NCBI GenBank assembly: GCA_039105265.1 | Contig: JAPFFF010000002.1 | Coordinates: 7,502,001 to 7,566,000 of the forward strand | Reading direction: 5' to 3' | DNA: 64,000 nucleotides | DNA from: Tritrichomonas musculus | Taxonomy: Eukaryota > Parabasalia > Tritrichomonadida > Tritrichomonadidae | Shown here: positions 11,061 through 47,340 of the stretch, piece after piece | How the letters are laid out: every line of letters begins with the position of its first letter | How positions within the stretch are numbered: position 1 is the first letter of the stretch | Translations under genes and position numbers: made by a program | The notes under the pieces: generated by a model | The model's input: only the letters and a program-made list of their open reading frames with translations | Told to the model about the DNA's origin: nothing | Database searches by the model: none

Positions 11061-14000
11061 CTAATATAGTGAAAAATAATTATTTTTGATTGAATCATAA
11101 ATTTGTGCAAATGATGGCCTATCTTGAGGATTTAATGACCAGCATTTATCAATCAAGTTTCGGCTAAATTTGCTTATTTCTTTAGGGATTTCTGCCTTTT
11201 TTCCCTCATAAACGTCAAAAACGTTAATGTTTGGATATTCGCCTTTCATCAATATTATATAAGCAACAACACCAAATGAATACACATCAACTTTCTCATC
11301 ATAATCTTTCGCTCTTATTAATTCAGGAGCCATGAAATTAAGAGTGCCTGTCATTTGAGTCATGCTTGTAATTTGAGTTCCAAGGTCAATCAATTTAGAG
11401 ATACCGAAATCGCTCAGTTTAACATTTTTTTCTGAATCAAGTAGAATGTTCTCTGGCTTTAAATCTCTATGAATGATTCCATGCATGTGAATGAATTTCA
11501 TTGCATCACAGATCTGTATAATAATTCTACTTCTTTCTTCGTTATTCAGCTTTTTTACGCAATTCTTTAAATTGTAAGGACAATACTCAAGTATGATCGA
11601 TGGATCATTTTTTTCATCACCGGGGAAGAAACCAAACGTTTTAATAATATTAGGATGGTCAAATGAACTTAAAAAATAATATTCGCTTATAAACCTCTTA
11701 AATTTGTCATAATCAAGTTCATTATTATTAATCTCGTCTTCCTCCTCATTTTCCTCATTTCCACTCATAATGTCACTGTTGTTGTCTTCTGATTTGTCTA
11801 GCTTACATATCGAAGTATCAAGGACCTTCAGTGCATATATTTGATCCCAAGAGATTTTGAAGACTTCAGATGTGGCTCCTCGTCCAAGCTTCTTAATCTT
11901 TTTTATTTTATCAATTTGTGTTGTATTTAAAAAAGTATAACTTTGCTCATTTCCTCTGCGAGGAAGTTCATTTCTTGCTGATTGGATTTCATCCATTAAT
12001 TCTTTCCGCTTTTCTTCAAATGATGCTATTTCAGTTTGAAGGTTCGCTTTCTTTTTTTCAAGTTCTTCAACTTCTTTAAGTATCACATCGTGTTGATCAA
12101 TGCTTTCAAGCTTTTTACTAAGAGATTCAATTTTCTGAAGATATTCGGTCTCTCTTTCTTTGAAATCTTCAAATTCTTTCAATTTCAAAGATTTGACTTG
12201 GGCTTCTTCCAGCTCCTTATTAAGTGATTCAATATTGAGCAGGTACTCTTTCTCTTTCTTTTCAAATTCTTCTTTGTTTTTTTGCGCTAAATTTTTTTGG
12301 TCTTCAAGCTGCTCTTCAAGTGATATAATCGTCTTCAGATGCATCTGAAGTGATTCATCTTTCTGAGGTTCTTGACTTCTTTGCTCCTGAACTTCATTCA
12401 TATTTTCATATGATTCATTTTTCTGAGGTTCTTGATTATCATTCATGTTTTTGTTTTCAAATGGCGCTTTTCTCTGTGGTTCTTGGTTACTTTGTTCTTG
12501 AAGTTCATTCAAATTTTTGCCACTTTTGTTTTCATATGATTCATTTTTCTGAGGTTCTTGATTATCGCTCATGTTTATGCAATTTTTGTTTTCATATGAT
12601 TCATTTTTCTGAGGTTCTTGATTATCGCTCATGTTTATGCAATTTTTGTTTTCATGTGATTCTTTTTTCTGAGGTTCTTGATTACTTTGTTTTTGAATTT
12701 CATTCAAATTATTGTCATTTTTGTTTTCATATGATTCTTTTTTCTGAGGTTCTTGATTATCATTCGCGTCTTTGTTTTCATGTGATTCATTTTTCTGAGG
12801 TTCTTGATTACTTTGTTTTTGAATTTCATTCAAATTATTGTCATTTTTGTTTTCATATGATTCATTTTTCTGAGGTTCTTGATTACTTTGTTTTTGAATT
12901 TCATTCAAATTATTGTCATTTTTGTTTTCATGTGATTCTTTTTTCTGAGGTTCTTGATTATCATTCGCGTCTTTGTTTTCATGTGATTCATTTTTCTGAG
13001 GTTCTTGATTACTTTGTTTTTGAATTTCATTCAAATTATTGTCATTTTTGTTTTCATATGATTCATTTTTCTGAGGTTCTTGATTACTTTGTTTTTGAAT
13101 TTCATTCAAATTATTGTCATTTTTGTTTTCATGTGATTCTTTTTTCTGAGGTTCTTGATTATCATTCGCGTCTTTGTTTTCATGTGATTCATTTTTCTGA
13201 GGTTCTTGATTACTTTGTTTTTGAATTTCATTCAAATTATTGTCATTTTTGTTTTCATATGATTCATTTTTCTGAGGTTCTTGATTACTTTGTTTTTGAA
13301 TTTCATTCAAATTATTGTCATTTTTGTTTTCATGTGATTCTTTTTTCTGAGGTTCTTGATTATCATTCGCGTCTTTGTTTTCATGTGATTCTTTTTTCTG
13401 AGGTTCTTGATTATCATTCGCGTCTTTGTTTTCATGTGATTCATTTTTCTGAGGTTCTTGATTACTTTGTTTTTGAATTTCATTCAAATTATTGTCATTT
13501 TTGTTTTCATGTGATTCTTTTTTCTGAGGTTCTTGATTATCGCTCATGTTTATGCAATTTTTGTTTTCATGTGATTCTTTTTTCTGAGGTTCTTGATTAC
13601 TTTGTTTTTGAATTTCATTCAAATTATTGTCATTTTTGTTTTCATGTGATTCTTTTTTCTGAGGTTCTTGATTATCATTCGCGTCTTTGTTTTCATGTGA
13701 TTCTTTTTTCTGAGGTTCTTGATTATCATTCGCGTCTTTGTTTTCATGTGATTCTTTTTTCTGAGGTTCTTGATTACTTTGTTCTTGAATTCCATTCAAA
13801 TTATTGTCATTTTTGTTTTCATGTGATTCATTTTTCTGAGGCTCTTGATTATCATTCGCGTCTTTGTTTTCATGTGATTCATTTTTCTGAGGTTCTTGAT
13901 TACTTTGTTCTTGAATTCCATTCATGTTTTTGTCACTTTTGTTGATCTGCTGATGATCTGTGCTTTCTAGCGGTACGGGCAAGTTTGGGGTCATTGGAGG

Positions 14001-15077
14001 CGTGCTAGCGTTTATAAATGCTGCCGAGACCCACGATCCAGTGATGCAGAAGGAGGCTCCCCTTTTTATGATTGTTTCGACTGGCGAAAAGATGCAGTGC
14101 GGGTTTGGCCCGCTTTTTGTAAAGAGCTCTCCGCACCAGTTCTTTCCAGAAGCCAGTATCTTCCCTTCAGTTGTCTGGAAGAGTGAGTAGTTGCTTCCTG
14201 CGTAAGCTGCGCTAATCTTGAACTTTTTCAGAGCAGGAATTTCAGTGAATTTTTCAACATTTTTCTTATCTTTACTGAAGCAAAGTTGACCGTATTCATT
14301 TGATCCTCTGCCAAATACGAGGCCTTCGCTATTAACAGCAAGACTGTGATTGCTGAAGGAAGTAACGTGAACTATTTTCTTTCCGATAAATTCAGGAATT
14401 TCTGTAAGTGAAAGTTGGTCTATTGGGCCGTTTTTTTTAAGAGGACTTTCATAAGCTTTATAGCTCGTTGAGATAACTATGATTGATTCTTTGCATAAAG
14501 TGACAAAGTGAGCTTTTTCTCCGTTTGGAAGAGAAAATGGTTGGAGCGCTTTTGAAGGAGATTGAAATATAGAATCTGTAATTATAAAGATTGAGCCTTC
14601 TGAATCAATAGCTGCCGCTTTTTCAAAACATCCAAAAAGTCTAACTGGATTTCTATCACCTAAATTTAGAAAGAGTGGAATTCCGTTGTTCTTATCTTTG
14701 AATACATAAGCAAGTTGAGATTTTTGACTTCCGTTAGTTGGTGAAATAAGATAAAGAGAAAATAAACCATCGCATAAAGCAGAAATAAATTTGCATTGAT
14801 GACCTTGATCATCTTTGATGATAATTTCGGTACTTTTTTCAATTGCTTTTTTTGGTAATGATCCGCTGATTTGAAAATTTTGATTATCCCCTACTGCATA
14901 TGCTCTCCCATCTGAGGTAATCCATATTGAACTTCTCAAGCAAACTGAATAGGATAAGAGCTTTGATATATCCAGTTGAGATTTCAGTGGAGGGAAAACT
15001 ATAGGGAAATTGGAACTGTTTTTTCCAGTTGATTGTTCATTAAGTTGGAGATTTTTATTAAATCCGCAAACTATCAT
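11061..15077 (-). CDS. RCC1-like domain / repeat linker / coiled coil / protein kinase fusion
   Basis: Predicted 1338 residues. Residues 1-360 contain RCC1-type beta-propeller repeats (AYAVGDNQNFQISG, LVFGRGSNEYGQL, ILASGKNWCGEL). Residues about 380-900 are a low-complexity linker of 17- and 25-residue repeats rich in Asn, Gln, Glu and Lys. A coiled coil follows to about 1040. The C-terminal kinase (about 1045-1338) has LGRGATSEVF, YALKV, HRDLKPEN, DFG and APE, so it looks catalytically competent and TKL-like. An acidic insert of about 30 residues follows the ATP-binding lysine. NEK8/NEK9 kinases also combine RCC1 and kinase domains, but with the kinase first. Targets are unknown. A long open frame on the opposite strand over the repeats is an artefact of the repeat phase. 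Confidence 0.9.
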   Translation of the reverse strand: MIVCGFNKNLQLNEQSTGKNSSNFPIVFPPLKSQLDISKLLSYSVCLRSSIWITSDGRAYAVGDNQNFQISGSLPKKAIEKSTEIIIKDDQGHQCKFISALCDGLFSLYLISPTNGSQKSQLAYVFKDKNNGIPLFLNLGDRNPVRLFGCFEKAAAIDSEGSIFIITDSIFQSPSKALQPFSLPNGEKAHFVTLCKESIIVISTSYKAYESPLKKNGPIDQLSLTEIPEFIGKKIVHVTSFSNHSLAVNSEGLVFGRGSNEYGQLCFSKDKKNVEKFTEIPALKKFKISAAYAGSNYSLFQTTEGKILASGKNWCGELFTKSGPNPHCIFSPVETIIKRGASFCITGSWVSAAFINASTPPMTPNLPVPLESTDHQQINKSDKNMNGIQEQSNQEPQKNESHENKDANDNQEPQKNESHENKNDNNLNGIQEQSNQEPQKKESHENKDANDNQEPQKKESHENKDANDNQEPQKKESHENKNDNNLNEIQKQSNQEPQKKESHENKNCINMSDNQEPQKKESHENKNDNNLNEIQKQSNQEPQKNESHENKDANDNQEPQKKESHENKDANDNQEPQKKESHENKNDNNLNEIQKQSNQEPQKNESYENKNDNNLNEIQKQSNQEPQKNESHENKDANDNQEPQKKESHENKNDNNLNEIQKQSNQEPQKNESYENKNDNNLNEIQKQSNQEPQKNESHENKDANDNQEPQKKESHENKNDNNLNEIQKQSNQEPQKNESYENKNDNNLNEIQKQSNQEPQKNESHENKDANDNQEPQKKESYENKNDNNLNEIQKQSNQEPQKKESHENKNCINMSDNQEPQKNESYENKNCINMSDNQEPQKNESYENKSGKNLNELQEQSNQEPQRKAPFENKNMNDNQEPQKNESYENMNEVQEQRSQEPQKDESLQMHLKTIISLEEQLEDQKNLAQKNKEEFEKKEKEYLLNIESLNKELEEAQVKSLKLKEFEDFKERETEYLQKIESLSKKLESIDQHDVILKEVEELEKKKANLQTEIASFEEKRKELMDEIQSARNELPRRGNEQSYTFLNTTQIDKIKKIKKLGRGATSEVFKISWDQIYALKVLDTSICKLDKSEDNNSDIMSGNEENEEEDEINNNELDYDKFKRFISEYYFLSSFDHPNIIKTFGFFPGDEKNDPSIILEYCPYNLKNCVKKLNNEERSRIIIQICDAMKFIHMHGIIHRDLKPENILLDSEKNVKLSDFGISKLIDLGTQITSMTQMTGTLNFMAPELIRAKDYDEKVDVYSFGVVAYIILMKGEYPNINVFDVYEGKKAEIPKEISKFSRNLIDKCWSLNPQDRPSFAQIYDSIKNNYFSLY
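12380..13940. repeat. Coding tandem repeat of 51- and 75-bp units
   Basis: The linker of the RCC1-kinase gene is built of two unit types: 17 residues (ENKDANDNQEPQKKESH) and 25 residues (ending NQEPQKNESH). They combine into a higher-order 17+25+25 residue (201-bp) pattern repeated at least three times between about 12760 and 13450. Near-identity of copies indicates recent expansion. Confidence 0.9.
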
Positions 15078-19302: not shown

Positions 19303-20226
19303 ATGTTCAAGGAGAATGAGATAGTCGCAAATAGATTTAAAATAATAGAAAGAATTGCATTTGGTGCATTCTCAATTGTATATAAGTGTTTAGACGAGCA
19401 AAAGAAAAATGAAGTATGTTTGAAAATCGAAAAAATTGATGAAGACGGCCAGTCAATGTTAAAGCATGAATTTTTAGTTGCAAAATCGTTTAATTCGCTT
19501 TTTTTATGTAAAACTTATGAATATTTTGAAGTTAATAATTATAAAATGATTTCAATGGAAATACTAGGTGAAAATCTTATAGATACAAGAAGAAAAAGAA
19601 AAAATCCGCCATCAATTCCTATGCTTATGAATGTTACCTTTTTATGCCTCAAATCATTAGCAGTGATGCATAATAAAAATTATGTTCATAGTGACGCCAA
19701 ACCATCAAATTTTGCTTTTAGAATGCTTAATAATAATTCTGATTACTCAATCGTTTTATATGATTTTGGACTTTCTCAGTATGAGGGTGAAGATCCTATT
19801 ATAACAAATTATCGAGATAACCTTACCCGAAATCCTCGTTATTTATCATTACATACTCATACAACTAAAAAATGGACCAAAACTGATGATATTTATGCCC
19901 TGATATATAGCATGGCTGATTTCTGGAGAAATGAACTCCCCTGGGATGGAAGAACGACAAATAAACTTGTATATGAAGTTAAAAATGGCTATGATTTAAA
20001 ACTTCTTCTTCCACCAGAATTGCATATTTTAATCGAAAATGCAGATCAGCCAACAGATATCATTATTCAAAAATTAGGAGAAAAATTATCACAAGTAAAA
20101 AGAAATGTTGAGGAGGAAATGCATTACATCCTTGATCCCGTGGATCCTGGAATGAAACCAAAACTGGTCAAGTATGTCTTTGAGAAAGGAACCAAAGAAA
20201 AGTTCACCAACCAACACTCTGCTTAA
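19303..20226 (+). CDS. CK1-family protein kinase (TTBK/CK1-like)
   Basis: Predicted 307 residues. The glycine loop reads IAFGAFSIVYKC and the ATP lysine VCLKIEK. The catalytic loop is VHSDAKPSNFA, with the HRD Arg replaced by Ser but the Asp retained as in many CK1 members. The metal-binding motif is YDFGLSQY. The activation segment NPRYLSLHTH matches the CK1 pattern RYxSxxxH. These residues suggest an active Ser/Thr kinase. The C-terminal tail after the kinase core is short (about 30 residues). The gene shares a 67-bp divergent promoter with the PH/LRR gene and converges on the large axonemal gene with a 186-bp gap. Confidence 0.9.
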   Translation: MFKENEIVANRFKIIERIAFGAFSIVYKCLDEQKKNEVCLKIEKIDEDGQSMLKHEFLVAKSFNSLFLCKTYEYFEVNNYKMISMEILGENLIDTRRKRKNPPSIPMLMNVTFLCLKSLAVMHNKNYVHSDAKPSNFAFRMLNNNSDYSIVLYDFGLSQYEGEDPIITNYRDNLTRNPRYLSLHTHTTKKWTKTDDIYALIYSMADFWRNELPWDGRTTNKLVYEVKNGYDLKLLLPPELHILIENADQPTDIIIQKLGEKLSQVKRNVEEEMHYILDPVDPGMKPKLVKYVFEKGTKEKFTNQHSA

Positions 20227-32203: not shown

Positions 32204-35200
32204 TTAGCATTCTTGGATATTTGGTAGTTCAATAACCATGTCACCTCTGTTATTTTTTTTAATAGGTCCGTCAAAAATTTTAACTTTTTTCATGTCATAT
32301 ACTGTGTCTTCCACAAAATTCATAGTTAAAGGTTTTTCATTCGGACATCCAACATTGTTATTAATCATGAAACTCAATTCTAAATGATTTTTGTTGTTAA
32401 ATATTTCTCTCAAAGCAATTTGGCGTGCGGTTTGTGGTGAAATTCCTCCAATTACTGTATTTTTTGTAAATTTTTTATTCGCCAATCTATTTACACGAGA
32501 ATTAATTTCACTAAATTGTAATGAAAGAAATGAAGAATCAATAGAATAATTAGCTTCAATATTTTTAGATGCGTCTATTGGGAGTTTTGGTCGGTAAGAA
32601 GAGTATTTAAAAGTTGAGTTACTCTTGACGTGATTATCATTATCACGAGGATTTGTAACGATACTTCTGGGGATATTGAAATTTGTATCATTCAAATTTA
32701 ATTTTGAAAAGCATTCGCATAATTGCTCAATCTTTACTCTTTCTTCTGGATTTTTTTTCAAGCAACTATTTAACACTTTAATAAATTCTGGAGTCACAGC
32801 TGATTTTGATCGATTATTGCCAAGTGTAAAACTTGAGCTTGAAAAGTCACGCCAATGAGGATTTTTGAGTAATTTCAATTTTCCAGAATTTGAAAGATTG
32901 CTGGTATATAATGATGGTAAATTATGTTCAATCAATTCTTTTGCAAGAACTCCAAGTGAAAAAACATCTATCTTATCATAATCAACTTTCTGAATATCGT
33001 TATTATATATTTCAGGTGGGCAATAAAATAGCAAGAAATCATTTGATATAACTTCATCTTCTTCATTGAAAATACTTTCTTTCAATTTTCTGAAGAAATT
33101 GATGTAATCTTTGGTGGGTTTCCTATCTGCTTTGGGTACAAATAAATAAGCTTTAAAATCCTTGTCAATATAAACATTTTTACTGGAAAAAGTCGACATA
33201 AAAAAGCCGTGAGAGTGGATTTCTTTGAGACCTTCGGCAACAGAATGTAATATTTTTAATTTAATTTGGATTGGGATTTCCTTTTGACTTAATTCACTTT
33301 CATATAAATAATTATACAAATTCAACAGTTTATAATCTTGAATTCTATCTGTATATGGTAGTAATGGCTGAACGACATGGCCATTGTCATAATTTGGAAT
33401 TTGATGAAATTCATATTTAAGGTGATATGGAAGCTTTATATAATCTGGTAGCTTATACTTTTTAAATGTACTTTGATCGTTATCCATATTATATAAATAA
33501 TAATCAAATTGTCCTGGTCCTGGAATCTTGTTTAAAAAATCGTCTAAATTCTTATCTAGGAGCTGTTCATCATCTCTATATTCGACAAAAATCATCATGA
33601 TATCAAATTTATAAGTCTGAAAATTTTCGGTGACTTTTCTAAATTTTTCGAATAAGTCTGAACCAAGAACAACAACCATCTTATTAAGAATTTCATCGCA
33701 ATTAGTAATACCAAGGGCAGAACCTTTTTTTAATTCTGCAAGGGTGCATTTATTTTTTATTTTAGAGAATGATCGAAATTTAAACTTGTTTTTCCCACTT
33801 AACATATCGAATATAAGGTTTCTTGCTTGGGTGTAATCTGTTTTTGGATCAATTCCAAGTGAATTGAGTATGAATTGATGATATTCTTCAAAATCAATAT
33901 TAGATAAATTTAAATATTTTTGATTATCTTGGTTATTGTTACTTTTTATATTTTCATTTGAATCTGGTGTCCCTAATTTTACCAAGTAATCAACAATTTG
34001 GTTAATTTTCCACCTATCTTTAGGATTACCTTTAAAGCAATGTAGAAGGAGTTCACATAAAGGAAAATCTGGTTGTTTGTCTAATCCATAAAATTTGTCT
34101 AATCCAGATTTAAATATATTATATACATCTGCATTCTTCTTTGATTTAAAAGTGAATGATTGATCATTTTTTGTTATAAGTTCATAAGTCAATGATCCAA
34201 AAGAGAAAACGTCTGATAGTTCTTTATCTTCCTTTTCAAGTTTTGGTGGAGTAATATTGCTTTTTTTTTGTGATTTATCTACTGCAGTAATATAAAATTT
34301 TTCAGGCGAATAAAAATAGTATTTGTCAGGTACTACAGATAATTCAGTATCGGGGGGATAATTTAAGTTGATTAGTCGTGCGTTCATATTTGAATCAATG
34401 AAAACAGATCTATCACTCAATTCAAAATCATTTATATCATTTGAGTGTAAAATAAAAATACCCATCGCAATTGAAAAAATCCATTTAAGAATATAGCAAT
34501 CTAAATTACATTTTTCAATTTTATGATTATTCGAATTAATTATAAAACTATTGATATTTTCACCTGGGCAAAGTATAAAAGCTTGATCTAAGTTAAAACC
34601 ATAAGGAGTAACAAAAAAGTTTTTTTTCCATCGATCCATTTCATTAACGTTTTTAAAAAAATTATCAATAAACTCAGTATCTATTTCTTCTGATATTTCC
34701 ATCTTTGTGAAAAATGTATTATATTTGGTATTGTAATAATGGCAGAAAACAAATTTTGTGTCAACACTGAGGATTTCATCTAACATAATATCGTTATTTT
34801 CATTAGATCCCCTTTTTTGAAGTTTTTGTAATTCTTTATTAAGAGTGTTTTTTCCATCTGGCAATTCTCTGTATTTTATAAATGTTCCCATAACATCAAA
34901 TTTATTTATTTGAGGATTTTTCTTAATAAACTTATTATATTGGTTCTTATGCTCATTACTCAACATAGAAAGACATTGTTCAATAATATCAAGGCAATAT
35001 AGAATGCCTTTTTTATACCCTTCTCTCAAATCATCAAAGGTACACTTATTTATGGTATCTTTGGGATTAGTTCCAAGAGGTGATTTTTTATAGATCATAT
35101 TAAGAATTTGTTCTTTAGCTGTTTTATAACTTGTTTTTTCATCAAAACCTAATATGTTAATAATAAATTCGTGGTATTTTTCTATATCAACATTATTGAT

Positions 35201-36046
35201 ATTAAAATATTGACTATTAGTAACATCTAATTGCTTTTTATGTTCCACATTTAATAAATATTCAATTACATTTTCAATTTTCCAGCGTTTCATTGGATTA
35301 ATATCTAAACAGTGATAAAGCAAATCTGAAAAAGGAAGGTTCCAATCAAAATTCATATATGTGATGGCTCCTTTTGCTATTTTTCCATAATTTTCAAATT
35401 TCCCATGATTAAAATATGTATGAAAATGATTTAATCTTGTAAGAAGTTCATGAGAAAATATTCCGTATGAATAAATATCTGACATCTTTTTCTGTTGTTG
35501 GCTTAATTCTTTGCCTTTTTGATAATATTCAAATTGTTCTGGAGAATAAAATGCAATCTTCTTTAGCACTGTTGATGCATTTTTGTTTACAACACTTCCA
35601 AAGTTTGAAAGTCTCGCTCCTAATTTTGCATCAATAAAAACAGATTGATCTGTTAATCCTAAATAATCAATGTTTTTTGAATGCAAAGTATGAATGCCCA
35701 TTGCAACAGAAAACAGCCATTGAAGTGTGTAAAGATCTAATTGTTCTACATCAATAGAATTTAATTCATTCGAAAATAAGATATGCTCTATATTTAAACC
35801 AGGGCAAAAAGTAAAACTATGATCTCTGCCTGGTGTAATAAAAAAGTTTTTTTCCCATGGGTTCATTTCTTTATCTAATATATGTAAGAAATGGTCTATA
35901 TTGTTGGAAATGTCGCTTGTTGTAATCTCCATTTTGAAAAAAAAAGAATTATCTTCTGGAACATACAAAGGTTGGAATATAATATTATCATCTATATCTT
36001 TAAATTTATCAAATTTTAGAGTGGACGCTCCATTAGATGCTGACAT
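32204..36046 (-). CDS. Triple pseudokinase with a duplicated helical module
   Basis: Predicted 1280 residues with three kinase-like domains. Domain 1 (about 20-275) has the catalytic-loop position GLTDQSVFID, DFG position SNFG, then YSPEQFE and DIYSYGIFSHELLTR. Domain 2 (about 425-690) has ELSDRSVFID, LINL and YSPEKFY. Domain 3 (about 845-1145) has STFSSKNVYID and CPPEIY, with DVFSLGVLAKELI. None has a HRD-type catalytic Asp followed by Lys and Asn, none has DFG, and no glycine loop or VAIK lysine is visible. Two copies of an about 115-residue helical module follow domains 1 and 2 (VDIEKYHEFIINILGFD and IDFEEYHQFILNSLGID), so domain plus module was duplicated. A non-catalytic scaffold or regulatory role is inferred. 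Confidence 0.8.
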   Translation of the reverse strand: MSASNGASTLKFDKFKDIDDNIIFQPLYVPEDNSFFFKMEITTSDISNNIDHFLHILDKEMNPWEKNFFITPGRDHSFTFCPGLNIEHILFSNELNSIDVEQLDLYTLQWLFSVAMGIHTLHSKNIDYLGLTDQSVFIDAKLGARLSNFGSVVNKNASTVLKKIAFYSPEQFEYYQKGKELSQQQKKMSDIYSYGIFSHELLTRLNHFHTYFNHGKFENYGKIAKGAITYMNFDWNLPFSDLLYHCLDINPMKRWKIENVIEYLLNVEHKKQLDVTNSQYFNINNVDIEKYHEFIINILGFDEKTSYKTAKEQILNMIYKKSPLGTNPKDTINKCTFDDLREGYKKGILYCLDIIEQCLSMLSNEHKNQYNKFIKKNPQINKFDVMGTFIKYRELPDGKNTLNKELQKLQKRGSNENNDIMLDEILSVDTKFVFCHYYNTKYNTFFTKMEISEEIDTEFIDNFFKNVNEMDRWKKNFFVTPYGFNLDQAFILCPGENINSFIINSNNHKIEKCNLDCYILKWIFSIAMGIFILHSNDINDFELSDRSVFIDSNMNARLINLNYPPDTELSVVPDKYYFYSPEKFYITAVDKSQKKSNITPPKLEKEDKELSDVFSFGSLTYELITKNDQSFTFKSKKNADVYNIFKSGLDKFYGLDKQPDFPLCELLLHCFKGNPKDRWKINQIVDYLVKLGTPDSNENIKSNNNQDNQKYLNLSNIDFEEYHQFILNSLGIDPKTDYTQARNLIFDMLSGKNKFKFRSFSKIKNKCTLAELKKGSALGITNCDEILNKMVVVLGSDLFEKFRKVTENFQTYKFDIMMIFVEYRDDEQLLDKNLDDFLNKIPGPGQFDYYLYNMDNDQSTFKKYKLPDYIKLPYHLKYEFHQIPNYDNGHVVQPLLPYTDRIQDYKLLNLYNYLYESELSQKEIPIQIKLKILHSVAEGLKEIHSHGFFMSTFSSKNVYIDKDFKAYLFVPKADRKPTKDYINFFRKLKESIFNEEDEVISNDFLLFYCPPEIYNNDIQKVDYDKIDVFSLGVLAKELIEHNLPSLYTSNLSNSGKLKLLKNPHWRDFSSSSFTLGNNRSKSAVTPEFIKVLNSCLKKNPEERVKIEQLCECFSKLNLNDTNFNIPRSIVTNPRDNDNHVKSNSTFKYSSYRPKLPIDASKNIEANYSIDSSFLSLQFSEINSRVNRLANKKFTKNTVIGGISPQTARQIALREIFNNKNHLELSFMINNNVGCPNEKPLTMNFVEDTVYDMKKVKIFDGPIKKNNRGDMVIELPNIQEC

Positions 36047-39937: not shown

Positions 39938-39984
39938 TTTTCACAGAGCGCCAATTTTCATTTTTTTAATTGCAGCTTTACCAA

Positions 39985-41871
39985 ATGAGCTCAGATTATG
40001 CAACTCCTGAGTCACTGATTAATGAATTGATATCATTAAAAAATACTCGTTTCGAACCTGGCTCAAGTGAATATTCATCTTTAACAGATTTTGTAAAAGA
40101 AATTTCAAAAAAGCATAGATGCCCTTTACAAGCATATTTAACAGGCCCATCAAGAACCGTTCAATGCTTTAAATGTAGATTTGGTGGAAAAATAAGAAGT
40201 ATTAATACTGTAAAAACTAACTGTCCGTGTTATGTAAATTTTATACGTGAAAAAGATGGCAGTTATAGTTTCAAAGATGCATTTTGGAACCACAATCATA
40301 AAACTAAAAGAGAATATTTCGAATGTCATTTTAATACTTTAACGAAAGAAGAAAAAAATGGTGTAATTCAACAACAACAGTTAAAAGTTCCACCATGTCA
40401 AATACGCACAAATTTAGACGTTTTTGTTAATAAAGATATTTTTTATGAAATTAGAAGAGATGAAATACAAAAATCAAAAAGAGAAACTCTAGAAAAATTT
40501 AAGGAAGTATGCAGAAGTCCTGATTATTCAAACCAATACGAACTTTCTAGAGATCAAAGATTAAAATCATGTTCATTTGTAAACAAATCTGTTGTTGAAG
40601 AATCTTATTCATATGATACTTTAATCATCGATGATACATCTGGAACAAATATTTATGATTTACCACTTTTGGTTCTTTTTACTGTTGATGCTGAAAATAA
40701 AACGCAAATCATTGGATTTTCGCTTTTAGAAGATAAAACAGAAGAATCATTTGAAAAATTTTTACAATTTATTAAACAACACTTGCAAAATGATCCGAGA
40801 GTTATTACATGTGATCGTTGCCAGGCACAAATAAATGCTATCGAACATGTTTTTCCAAATACATTTATTGTTTATTGCCGAATTCATATTCGTAGGAACC
40901 TTCTAATTTATTTTGAAAAAAATGATGACATTATTGTTGGTTTCGATGACATTGCAACATATCTGAATAGATGCAATGAATATGTTGAGTTACTAAGAAA
41001 AAGGTTGAGTCAACTTGACTCTGATGATGAAGGATATATAATATTAGATACATTATTGAATAATTTAGATAGATGGCTCCCAAGTAGATTAATCGAACTT
41101 GGCATATATTCCGAATGGACCAGCAACCGTGCAGAAGGATTTTTTGGTAACTTTAAAATCAAATTTGGATTCTCAAGAAAATCAGCATCTGAATTATGCA
41201 AGAATTTAATGACTTACATTAAATTGATGAAAGTTCAATCACTCAAATCTATTTCTACAACCAATAAACATTATGAAACATTTCCATTATTTACAGATGA
41301 AGAACGAAAACAAATTGGAGCTTTGGCATTGAGATATATCGCAGATGAATACATAGCAGTAATAAATGATGTTAATAATGAACCTTGGTGTCCATGGTGC
41401 TCACTAAAACAAATGGGATCCTCATTATCTCTTCCATGCAGACATGTCATGCATGAAATGGAAGAAATATCATTATCACTAGAGGATATCGATGAAAGAT
41501 ATCTTCGAATTGAAAGAAATACTTCTGATCATCTTCTTAATTGCAGTGAAGAAATTATTATAAATAACGATTCCAAAAAAGATTGCAGTTACAGTGGACT
41601 AATGACAAGAATTTCTCCTTGGGCGTCTGCAGCTCAAAAAAGTCAAGAAGTAATGGATGTTTTCGATCGTACATTTAATGATTTCCAACAAATTGGACAA
41701 GAAATAAATTCAGGAATGCCACCAACTTTATCAATCAAAGGTAAAATTGCTTCTCATCCATCTCATAATGTTATTTTGGCAGGTGCACCTAAAACAAAAA
41801 GACTTTATCGATGCTCAAAATGTCATGAATTTGGACATAAATGCACAAATTGTCCTCAAAAAGACTCTTAA
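39985..41871 (+). CDS. MULE transposase, intact
   Basis: Predicted 628 residues from ATG 39985 (MSSDYATPES); five further in-frame codons upstream begin with TTG and are excluded. The N-terminus has a FAR1/WRKY-GCM1-type zinc finger (CPLQAY, CFKC, CPCYV, HNH). The MULE catalytic domain has D216/D217 in IIDDTSGTN, D277 in TCDRCQAQ and E384 in NRAEGFF, the expected DDE arrangement. Conserved VFPNTFIVYCRIHIRRNL follows the second Asp. A SWIM-like cluster (CPWCS, LPCRHVMHEM) and a C-terminal CCHC zinc knuckle (CSKCHEFGHKCTNC) complete it. It would cut and paste the element bounded by the 73-bp repeats. No disruption is seen, so the copy may be active or recently so. Confidence 0.9.
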   Translation: MSSDYATPESLINELISLKNTRFEPGSSEYSSLTDFVKEISKKHRCPLQAYLTGPSRTVQCFKCRFGGKIRSINTVKTNCPCYVNFIREKDGSYSFKDAFWNHNHKTKREYFECHFNTLTKEEKNGVIQQQQLKVPPCQIRTNLDVFVNKDIFYEIRRDEIQKSKRETLEKFKEVCRSPDYSNQYELSRDQRLKSCSFVNKSVVEESYSYDTLIIDDTSGTNIYDLPLLVLFTVDAENKTQIIGFSLLEDKTEESFEKFLQFIKQHLQNDPRVITCDRCQAQINAIEHVFPNTFIVYCRIHIRRNLLIYFEKNDDIIVGFDDIATYLNRCNEYVELLRKRLSQLDSDDEGYIILDTLLNNLDRWLPSRLIELGIYSEWTSNRAEGFFGNFKIKFGFSRKSASELCKNLMTYIKLMKVQSLKSISTTNKHYETFPLFTDEERKQIGALALRYIADEYIAVINDVNNEPWCPWCSLKQMGSSLSLPCRHVMHEMEEISLSLEDIDERYLRIERNTSDHLLNCSEEIIINNDSKKDCSYSGLMTRISPWASAAQKSQEVMDVFDRTFNDFQQIGQEINSGMPPTLSIKGKIASHPSHNVILAGAPKTKRLYRCSKCHEFGHKCTNCPQKDS

Positions 41872-44112: not shown

Positions 44113-47100
44113 ATGAGAGCTTCTTTCCGCTCTATAAGGAAAGGTCCATCTAAACCACACGTAAGTAATATTATTGCTAAACCACAACAACAATCTGCTC
44201 CAGTATTATCTAAACATTCTTACGTTGTTTCACCTTCTCTTCATACTAATAGTAATACAAATATTAATAATATTATCCAAAAGAGTGAAATAAGCGAAGC
44301 ACCTTCACAAAACCAGAAATATACATTTAATGCTGATGAACAATGCGATATATTTATAACGAAAGCAGCAACAATGCCTCTATATGCTGCCGTCGAACAA
44401 TTTCTTAAACAGAGGTTCAATGCAGCAAATTCTGTTTACTGGCAAGAAATTCCAAACGCTCAAATTCTTTATTCGCCATCAATGAGACTTAAAAATGAAC
44501 ACTCAACAGGAATTGTTGGCGCATGCTATTTTCAAAGGCAAATTTTACGAGTATCACAAAATTCTTCTCATCCATCATTTTCTTCTCAAATTGATGGAAA
44601 AGTTGCTGCACAAAATGCCTCATTGTTGCTCTTTCCCATATATGATTGGAGAAATAATTTATCTGCCATTGTTGAAATCGTGTCCGAGACAGGTGAATTT
44701 TCCCAAGATGATGAACTGTTTGCACAATGGTTTGCCAATAAATTTAAGCTTCTATCTAAGTGGTTCAAACAACCATTTGTTACAGATGAGTCTATTCATG
44801 AGATAATGGAATTAAATGATAGAGAAAAATTTGTCAATCTAATCAAAAAGAAAATGTGTGACACCTTTGATTGCCGTGAATTTGAAATCTGGACATATGA
44901 CAAAAAAGAAGATAAGATGAGGCTCTTTTTCCAACCAGTAGTTGCTACTGAAACAGGTATTGTTGGTGATTCTTTAGTTCGTGAACAAGCCATTAATGCC
45001 ATTTCCAACCGAATGAATTCTAGTTACAATCCAAGAGTCGATGGTGATGTTGAAGAATCCGTACTTGTGATACCTGTTATTGAAAAAGAAGATCCACTAA
45101 TTCATGGCGTTTGCTTACGAGGATCAAAACACGAACTTTTTACAAAAGATGACGAAGATTCTCTCAAAAAACTAGCACCATTTATTTTATTAGCATTTGC
45201 CAATTGCCAAGCCTTTGCAGGTGTTAATAATTGCGCTCAATCTTCACAGGATGAACAAGATAGCTTAGCTGCCCTTCTCGATGTTGTAGAATTATTATCT
45301 TCACAATTAGATACAGAGAAACTGACTGATCTGATATTAGAGAAAGGCCGAGCTTTGACAAATTCAGATCGTTGCTCTTTATTCCTCCTCGATGATAATA
45401 AGCAGAATCTTGCATCATATTATCAAACTGGTGTTACCAAACCCATTGTTTTACCTGCTGATCAAGGAATTGCTGGCAAAACTCTTAAAGAAAAACGCCT
45501 TTTCAATATCAACGATTGCTATGAATGTAATTTCTTCGATTCAAGTACCGATAAAAAGACCGGATATCACACAAAAACTCTCCTTTCAGTCCCCATCTTT
45601 TCTACTCGAGGAGAAGTTATAGGTGTCACTCAAATGATCAATAAAAAAGGATCGGAGAATCACCTATTTACAGAATGGGATGGCAAAATCATTCAAATCT
45701 TCAACATTTTCTGTGGAATATCATTAGAAAACGCCAAACTATTCAAAGAAACCATTGATACCAATAATCAATTACGTGGATTCCTTGATACAGCATTTTC
45801 AATGACCAAATCCGAAGACATAAAGAAATTAATCAATGACATCTTAAAGAATGCCCGAGAAACAGTTGAAGCAGAAAGAGGCTCCATATTTCTTTATGAC
45901 AAAGAAACCGGCAAATTGAATTCATTTTTGGCTGATGGTGGCAAAGTACCGACCTCAATTGATCTTACCATTGGCATTGCTGCTGAAGCCTACAAGACTA
46001 AGAAAGGAATCATTGAAAATGATGCCTACGGCTCATCGATATTTAACAAATCTATTGATGAAATCACTGGCTACAAGACCAAATCAATCATTGCCTCACC
46101 AATAGCATCATCAAATGGTGGTGTTGTTGGTATTGTTGAAATGCTCAACAAGAAGAACAACAGTGGCTTTGGTGAGAAAGATTTACAGACAGTCAATGCA
46201 TTTGCCTCATTTGTTTCATTTGCACTACAAAACAACCGAGTTAATGAAGTAGCACAAACTCCCAGTACTGACATAGAAATAGACAAATATTTGAGTGAAA
46301 GTGAGAAACCAGGAACGAAAACTCCAGAAAAACTACAATTAACTGATGATGAAAAGAAAACAGTTTTATCACTCAATTGCTTTTCTGTTAATTTCAAAGG
46401 AGTTGGACACATTAAAGAACTTTTCTTTTTCTTCGGCTATTATGATCTCATTGAAACCTTTAAATTGACAAATGAACGCTTCTTACGATTTATATTAAAG
46501 ATGCGCGAAACATACACATCAACATCCTATCATAATTGGTCTCATGCATGCGATGTTACACAATATATTTTGTATCAAATAACGACAGCCAAAGCTGATG
46601 AAATATTCACCAAAGAAGAGCTCTTCGTTATGCTAACTGCAGGCGTATGTCATGATGCTAATCATCGTGGTTTAAATAACGTATATAACGTAAAAGCAGA
46701 GACACCACTTGGTATTCTATTTAAGGATCAAAGTGTTATGGAAATGCACCACATAACAGTCTCTATTCCAATCCTTTCAGAACCAGATATTAACTTCTTT
46801 GGCTTCTTTGATGATAACGAAGTTAAAAAAGTTTGGACATTGTTCATCAGAATCATCTTAGCAACTGATATGGCTCATCACTTTGAACTGGTTAAAAAAG
46901 GCCAAGCTTTGATCGACAATAATGAATGGAGTTGGGAAGAACCTGATCATCGTTTGCTTGCAATGCAAATTATTATTAAAGTTGCTGATATTTCGAATGT
47001 TTCTCGTCCTTTCCAATACGCTGATAAGTGGTGCGATATCTTGAATGAAGAATTCTTCCATCAAGGTGATTTAGAAAAGTCAAGCGGTATTGGTCTAACT

Positions 47101-47340
47101 TCTCCTTTGAATGATAGAGAACATCCTGATAAACCTAAATCACAGATCGGTTTCTACAACTTTATATGCTTGCCACTTTACACAGTAGCTGGTTCTATCT
47201 TCCCTGAATTGATGGTTAATGCTGACTCTGTAAGATCTAACTTGGATACTTGGAAGAAAATTGCCGCAGAAAATGCTGAAAAAGCAAAACAAATGGAACA
47301 ACAAAATGGTGGTGCTTCAAATAATGAAGAAAAGAAATAA
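44113..47340 (+). CDS. GAF-domain 3',5'-cyclic nucleotide phosphodiesterase
   Basis: Predicted 1075 residues. Two clear GAF domains lie at about 385-540 (SDRCSLFLLDD, KTLLSVPIF, GVTQMINKK) and 555-708 (AERGSIFLYDKE, KSIIASPIA, VEMLNKK). One or two divergent GAF-like domains occupy 60-370. The PDEase I HD domain follows: HNWSHACDV from H807, HDANHRGLNN from H847, ATDMAHHFE, KVADISN with D959, then EFFHQGDLE and the glutamine-switch region SQIGFYNF. All metal ligands expected for class I PDEs are present, so it should hydrolyse cAMP or cGMP, probably under allosteric GAF control. GAF-PDEs resemble PDE2/5/6/10/11. There is no predicted membrane segment. Confidence 0.95.
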   Translation: MRASFRSIRKGPSKPHVSNIIAKPQQQSAPVLSKHSYVVSPSLHTNSNTNINNIIQKSEISEAPSQNQKYTFNADEQCDIFITKAATMPLYAAVEQFLKQRFNAANSVYWQEIPNAQILYSPSMRLKNEHSTGIVGACYFQRQILRVSQNSSHPSFSSQIDGKVAAQNASLLLFPIYDWRNNLSAIVEIVSETGEFSQDDELFAQWFANKFKLLSKWFKQPFVTDESIHEIMELNDREKFVNLIKKKMCDTFDCREFEIWTYDKKEDKMRLFFQPVVATETGIVGDSLVREQAINAISNRMNSSYNPRVDGDVEESVLVIPVIEKEDPLIHGVCLRGSKHELFTKDDEDSLKKLAPFILLAFANCQAFAGVNNCAQSSQDEQDSLAALLDVVELLSSQLDTEKLTDLILEKGRALTNSDRCSLFLLDDNKQNLASYYQTGVTKPIVLPADQGIAGKTLKEKRLFNINDCYECNFFDSSTDKKTGYHTKTLLSVPIFSTRGEVIGVTQMINKKGSENHLFTEWDGKIIQIFNIFCGISLENAKLFKETIDTNNQLRGFLDTAFSMTKSEDIKKLINDILKNARETVEAERGSIFLYDKETGKLNSFLADGGKVPTSIDLTIGIAAEAYKTKKGIIENDAYGSSIFNKSIDEITGYKTKSIIASPIASSNGGVVGIVEMLNKKNNSGFGEKDLQTVNAFASFVSFALQNNRVNEVAQTPSTDIEIDKYLSESEKPGTKTPEKLQLTDDEKKTVLSLNCFSVNFKGVGHIKELFFFFGYYDLIETFKLTNERFLRFILKMRETYTSTSYHNWSHACDVTQYILYQITTAKADEIFTKEELFVMLTAGVCHDANHRGLNNVYNVKAETPLGILFKDQSVMEMHHITVSIPILSEPDINFFGFFDDNEVKKVWTLFIRIILATDMAHHFELVKKGQALIDNNEWSWEEPDHRLLAMQIIIKVADISNVSRPFQYADKWCDILNEEFFHQGDLEKSSGIGLTSPLNDREHPDKPKSQIGFYNFICLPLYTVAGSIFPELMVNADSVRSNLDTWKKIAAENAEKAKQMEQQNGGASNNEEKK

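Follow-up and report, generated by a model that had tools for sequence, protein, structure and literature searches.

Tritrichomonas musculus is a commensal of the mouse gut. The window analysed here, 64,000 nucleotides of contig JAPFFF010000002.1 (C2; positions 7,502,001 to 7,566,000 of the forward strand), holds on its minus strand a gene of 27.7% GC that encodes P0001, a protein with three kinase-like domains (A, B and C), all of them predicted to be catalytically dead. The reading frame is unbroken, and an open stretch of 1280 codons would arise by chance with a log10 probability of about -45 at the window's base composition. P0002, a 100% identical protein, was obtained from a separate source whose label 'lgn' we take to mean the Logan assemblies. 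An earlier note on this DNA had named a frameshift or sequence error as grounds for giving up its reading. A frameshift is disfavoured by the existence of the identical P0002, which was possibly built from the same reads. The kinase array proposed in that note is present, while its strand had to be corrected to minus. No clear membrane span was seen in P0001, as the 19-residue hydropathy mean reaches at most 1.84, within domain B.

Table 1. Features of the P0001 gene, in order along the protein.
Feature	Positions in window	Strand	Residues	Evidence
Whole gene, three kinase-like domains predicted dead	32204..36046	minus	1280 in total	Open reading frame, Pfam, identical protein P0002
Kinase-like domain A	35240..36019	minus	~10-269	HRD columns YLG, DFG columns NFG, SPE, SDIYSYG, NPMKR
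Helical module A	34802..35239	minus	~270-415	Duplicate comparison, structure model
Kinase-like domain B	33971..34774	minus	~425-692	HRD columns DFE, DFG columns NLN, SPE, SDVFSFG, NPKDR
Helical module B, duplicate of module A	33509..33970	minus	~693-846	phmmer E 2.6e-21
Kinase-like domain C	32702..33490	minus	~853-1115	HRD columns MST, DFG columns VPK, PPE, IDVFSLG, NPEER
Ser/Asn-rich linker	32537..32701	minus	~1116-1170	
Conserved C-terminal domain, ~110 residues	32207..32536	minus	~1171-1280	

Pfam recognizes three kinase stretches in P0001 with scores above the curated cut-offs (PK_Tyr_Ser-Thr 82.8 bits, cut-off 23.1; Pkinase 77.5 bits, cut-off 31.7), which places them in the protein kinase fold. 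Each of the three domains also matches our unit profile at E 1e-45 or better, the profile having been built from these same units. Unit A and unit B, each a kinase domain with its module, share 34% identity over 420 residues (E 5e-80). The kinase domain and the module are, on this comparison, duplicated together as one unit, as the earlier note had proposed, and the module is nearer 140 residues than the 115 given there. Domain C matches unit B at E 2e-12 and unit A at E 3e-5, mainly in the kinase part. It had been taken for a third, more diverged domain; its place in the family and tree described below makes 'older sister type' the better name, as such domains also stand beside a domain-A-type unit in two-unit relatives.

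Module A is helical in the structure model, with block means of the predicted local distance difference test (pLDDT) of 70-87 over most of its length and 33-54 around residues 321-350. Its five Pfam matches all fall under the cut-off, and no convincing sequence relative was found in the PDB. The C-terminal domain, overlooked in the earlier note together with the surrounding gene family, has invariant R, Q, R, N, N and P across 8 aligned members and is modelled, at low confidence, as strand-strand-helix-strand-strand. The low-confidence model of domain C has mostly TK and TKL kinases among the structural neighbours shown.

Residues were read from an alignment of the family units with nine other kinase units encoded in this genome. 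HRD and DFG are both present in six of these, and the reference units L023, L027 and L029 are themselves degenerate. In this alignment and in a profile search, neither the catalytic Asp of HRD nor the metal-binding Asp of DFG that mark an active kinase was found in A, B or C; the earlier note had named an intact pair in any one of them as grounds for giving up its reading. The catalytic-loop Lys column holds T, S and S and the Asn column S, S and N in A, B and C, respectively; the catalytic loop was said to be replaced throughout, which holds for the HRD Asp and the Lys in all three domains but not for the Asn, retained in domain C. The DFG motif is replaced in each, as claimed. The Glu of the APE-like triplet, the helix-F Asp and the C-lobe Arg of 'NPxxR' stay in place in all three (Table 1). 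The three N-lobes are reduced. No glycine loop is recognisable, with gaps at the glycine columns in 24 of 24 aligned family units, and the N-lobe Lys column reads L, Y, K and the Glu column I, N, I, in a region where the alignment is unreliable. As worded in PMC3218828, a pseudokinase is a kinase domain that lacks one or more of K72, D166 and D184, and both D166 and D184 are absent from A, B and C. Judged from the alignment, the residues needed to transfer phosphate and to bind metal are missing from every domain, and those that hold the C-lobe together are retained.

We consider it probable (roughly 0.6) that P0001 is a tandem array of three pseudokinases acting as a non-catalytic, multivalent binding protein. 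Such a protein would phosphorylate nothing. Its kinase C-lobes, helical modules and C-terminal domain would each dock a partner, most likely the cell's active kinases or their substrates, and the partners would be gathered or allosterically held by the array.

The gene is by similarity a member of a family and not a lone oddity. The genome, a 193,395,805-base assembly in 746 contigs, was searched with the whole protein (23 matches), with module A through module B (24 matches) and with module A alone (5 matches). The family comprises at least 11 genes in the genome and two proteins from protein searches, P0003 and P0009 (617 residues). P0001 has three units, and P0003 (1256 residues, 39% identity over 99%) has the same three-unit layout, which favours the binding array. 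L010 (639 residues) and L011 (637 residues) consist of one domain-A-type and one domain-C-type unit and have no C-terminal domain. Eight further members of 858-950 residues (L014, L015, L016, L019, L020, L021, L025 and L028; L016 is a near-copy of L015) are two-unit proteins in which the second module is short and the C-terminal domain is present. A paralogue on contig C10 is M9Y10_003668 at NCBI. The module, which the earlier note had suggested looking for in other trichomonad proteins, was found by single-sequence search of this one genome at E < 0.001 in L010 and L011 besides its two copies in P0001, and in no others; in the two-unit members a counterpart is recognised by where it lies and how it aligns.

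The unit profile finds 28 units in 13 family proteins. The DFG Asp and the catalytic Lys are absent from all 28, and an Asp stands in the HRD column of a single unit, domain C of L014. The catalytic-loop Asn is kept in 6 units and the helix-F Asp in 8, while the APE Glu and the C-lobe Arg are present in 28 of 28. Three observations would fit a pocket re-used for other chemistry with different residues: 7 of 13 domain-A-type units have an Asp three places past the HRD-Asp column ('LTDQS', 'LSDRS'), domain A has NFG at the DFG position, and in domain C one Lys falls, by an uncertain alignment, in the column of the N-lobe Lys. The extra Asp is missing from the other 6 A-type units, however, and domain C differs. 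Together with the missing glycine loop and the uniform loss of the catalytic Lys and DFG Asp, this makes a non-canonical enzyme very improbable.

The search with module A through module B also led to a second, larger group of dead arrays, L032-L035 and L039-L041, of 1007 to at least 2217 residues, encoded on contigs C54, C28, C6 and C1. L041 as query gave 52 genome matches, one of them with internal stops, which add many loci to the group, and its genes are clustered at about 67-165 kb on C54 and 680-750 kb on C6. Repeat units inside one protein can be almost identical, which suggests recent homogenisation. In twelve proteins read whole or in part, the HRD Asp and the DFG Asp are absent from all 25 units, with HQN, HNN, HLN or HGN in place of HRD; this count leaves out a more degenerate fourth repeat in five proteins. 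The HRD Asp is also absent from three more partial matches close to the C-termini. Among the 22 units with both positions aligned, 18 have neither the APE Glu nor the C-lobe Arg and 4 keep both (in L034, L044 and L046). Across the two dead groups the pair is present in 32 units, absent in 18 and mixed in none, in a count that leaves out units with a gap at either position and in which near-copies reduce the number of independent events to a few.

Selection was assessed from the ratio of nonsynonymous to synonymous substitution rates (dN/dS), computed for 44 pairs, six of them bootstrapped. The ratio is 0.33 (0.24-0.42) for L010/L011 and 0.39 (0.31-0.48) for L015/L019. Three pairs from the larger arrays give 0.44, 0.57 and 0.59. 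P0001 itself was compared at the protein level, with P0003. Identity is 50% in domain A, 46% in module A, 36% in domain B, 36% in module B, 47% in domain C, 38% in the linker and 35% in the C-terminal domain. A and C, the types common to the two-unit relatives, are thus the best kept, and B changes faster. A family of duplicated kinases that have lost their function and are drifting would account for this fast change of unit B, for the high divergence and degenerate N-lobes, for a dN/dS of 1.50 (0.78-3.99) in the most recent pair, L015/L016, and for the stops in one larger-group match. We regard such decay as improbable, since no break interrupts any of the 11 family reading frames found in the genome (637-1280 codons; that of P0001 at 27.7% GC), dN/dS is below 1 in the diverged pairs, and the APE Glu and C-lobe Arg are invariant in the family.

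A binding array is supported by the residue counts in the 28 family units, by the joint presence or absence of Glu and Arg across both dead groups, by the low ratios in two diverged family pairs and by the single clade that the units of both dead groups form in the tree below; the selection for a binding role that the earlier note had suggested gains indirect support from the two diverged pairs and the invariant Glu and Arg and is weakened by the value for L015/L016, the only recent family pair. Several other points weigh against this reading. Synonymous divergence (dS) is near saturation in L010/L011 (1.37) and L015/L019 (1.03) and past saturation in most other family pairs. Conservation relative to P0003 is weak in unit B and in the C-terminal domain, and confidence is low in both structure models (mean pLDDT 54 and 46). 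Some kinases, namely CASK, WNK and SelO, were misjudged as dead from sequence alone.

A tree was built from 55 of 66 collected units, after removal of 11 near-copies or degenerate units, with the HRD-to-Asn and DFG columns excluded; the 66 do not include L016, P0009 or L042-L046. Support is 100/98 for the A-type units (13), 98/90 for the C-type units (11) and 97/90 for A and C joined. The larger arrays group at 99/98, and the 39 units of both all-dead groups form one clade at 99/97. The all-dead clade adjoins 12 units of the genome (94/88) that we take, from recall and likeness, to be TKL-type, and both together are set apart at 100/99 from four other kinases used as outgroup; branches are long. 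Domain A of P0001 groups with that of L010, L011 and P0003 (97/95), while the B units of P0001 and P0003, a weakly supported pair (93/54), lie outside. The duplication of A and B therefore seems older than the split from P0003. The C-type kinase parts of L015 and L019 are much closer in the tree than their A-type parts, which looks like gene conversion.

In the best tree catalysis was lost once for both all-dead groups, a tentative result to which an attraction of long branches may contribute. Topology tests that placed the family with TKL and the larger arrays outside gave p 0.025, C-type with TKL p 0.027, and A-type with TKL p 0.061. With the larger arrays placed with TKL p was 0.298, a value at which the test does not reject that the larger group arose separately. 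Several of the TKL-type units are also damaged, for example in L023, L027, L036, L037 and L038 (HRN, NFN, HLN, HSE or EIG), and catalysis has therefore been lost more than once in this genome. The tandem TKL-type proteins L036, L037 and L038 each have three or four kinase domains, and intact catalytic motifs stand next to damaged ones; a chain of this kind is a plausible intermediate layout.

The JH2 domain of JAK and the RAF-family pseudokinases switch active kinase domains. Each unit of P0001 might likewise dock alongside an active kinase domain and switch its activity, as a regulator and not a passive scaffold. The TKL-type kinases as nearest relatives and the mixed chains of L036-L038 would fit this role, but P0001 has no active kinase domain, and any kinase partner must therefore be another protein. 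We judge a regulator rather unlikely and a binding array the better account.

TKL-type L024, L026 and the tandem L036-L038 resemble the family in the kinase C-lobe, some of them also in tandem layout, and their short post-kinase tail 'NVxxEEYxxY' may weakly match the module start; they differ in that each retains HRD and DFG in one or more of its domains. None of the five was found by the module search, and the C-terminal domain was not found in L036-L038 by a one-sequence search, an insensitive one that missed most family members too. Our broader proposal is that in Tritrichomonas a TKL-type kinase lost catalysis once, long ago, and became a binding unit that was duplicated again and again, giving a large modular superfamily of all-dead arrays, with one to four units found per protein, that wires signalling without catalysis. 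It is offered tentatively, as doubtful though possible. If true, the arrays would do with the kinase fold what ankyrin and LRR scaffolds do with their repeats. An all-dead family that keeps the Glu and Arg would show a kinase fold selected and multiplied purely for binding, and would offer a natural sequence set for separating structural from catalytic demands of the fold.

Kinase-fold domains serve binding or regulation in JAK, wheat tandem kinase proteins, PEAK and Tribbles, with a tandem arrangement in JAK and wheat. In the JAK and wheat proteins a dead domain is coupled to a live one, in PEAK and Tribbles there is a single domain, and the best-known pseudokinases in general are single or stand beside a live domain, whereas P0001 is apparently dead in three of three. 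For Tribbles, the role of the kinase-fold domain in binding or regulation is described in PMC7586955. Giardia WB has 195 Neks, 139 of which lack a key catalytic residue, and this is likewise a lineage-specific kinase expansion in an anaerobic protist with most members without catalytic residues (PMC3218828). The T. musculus arrays differ in their TKL-type relatives and in having several dead domains per chain. The Giardia set is a precedent for many dead kinases in an anaerobic protist; what would be new is not a dead kinase in itself but a tandem array of TKL-type descent that is dead throughout and has modules of its own.

Four further open reading frames were noted in the window. A 1338-residue protein (11061-15077, minus) combines RCC1 repeats with a C-terminal kinase domain, and a 307-residue kinase-like protein (19303-20226, plus) has 'HSDAKPSN' in place of HRDLKPxN and retains DFG. 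About 4 kb beyond the P0001 gene lies a MULE-type transposase recognized by Pfam (39970-41871, plus). The protein at 44113-47340 (plus) carries several GAF domains and a cyclic-nucleotide phosphodiesterase domain.
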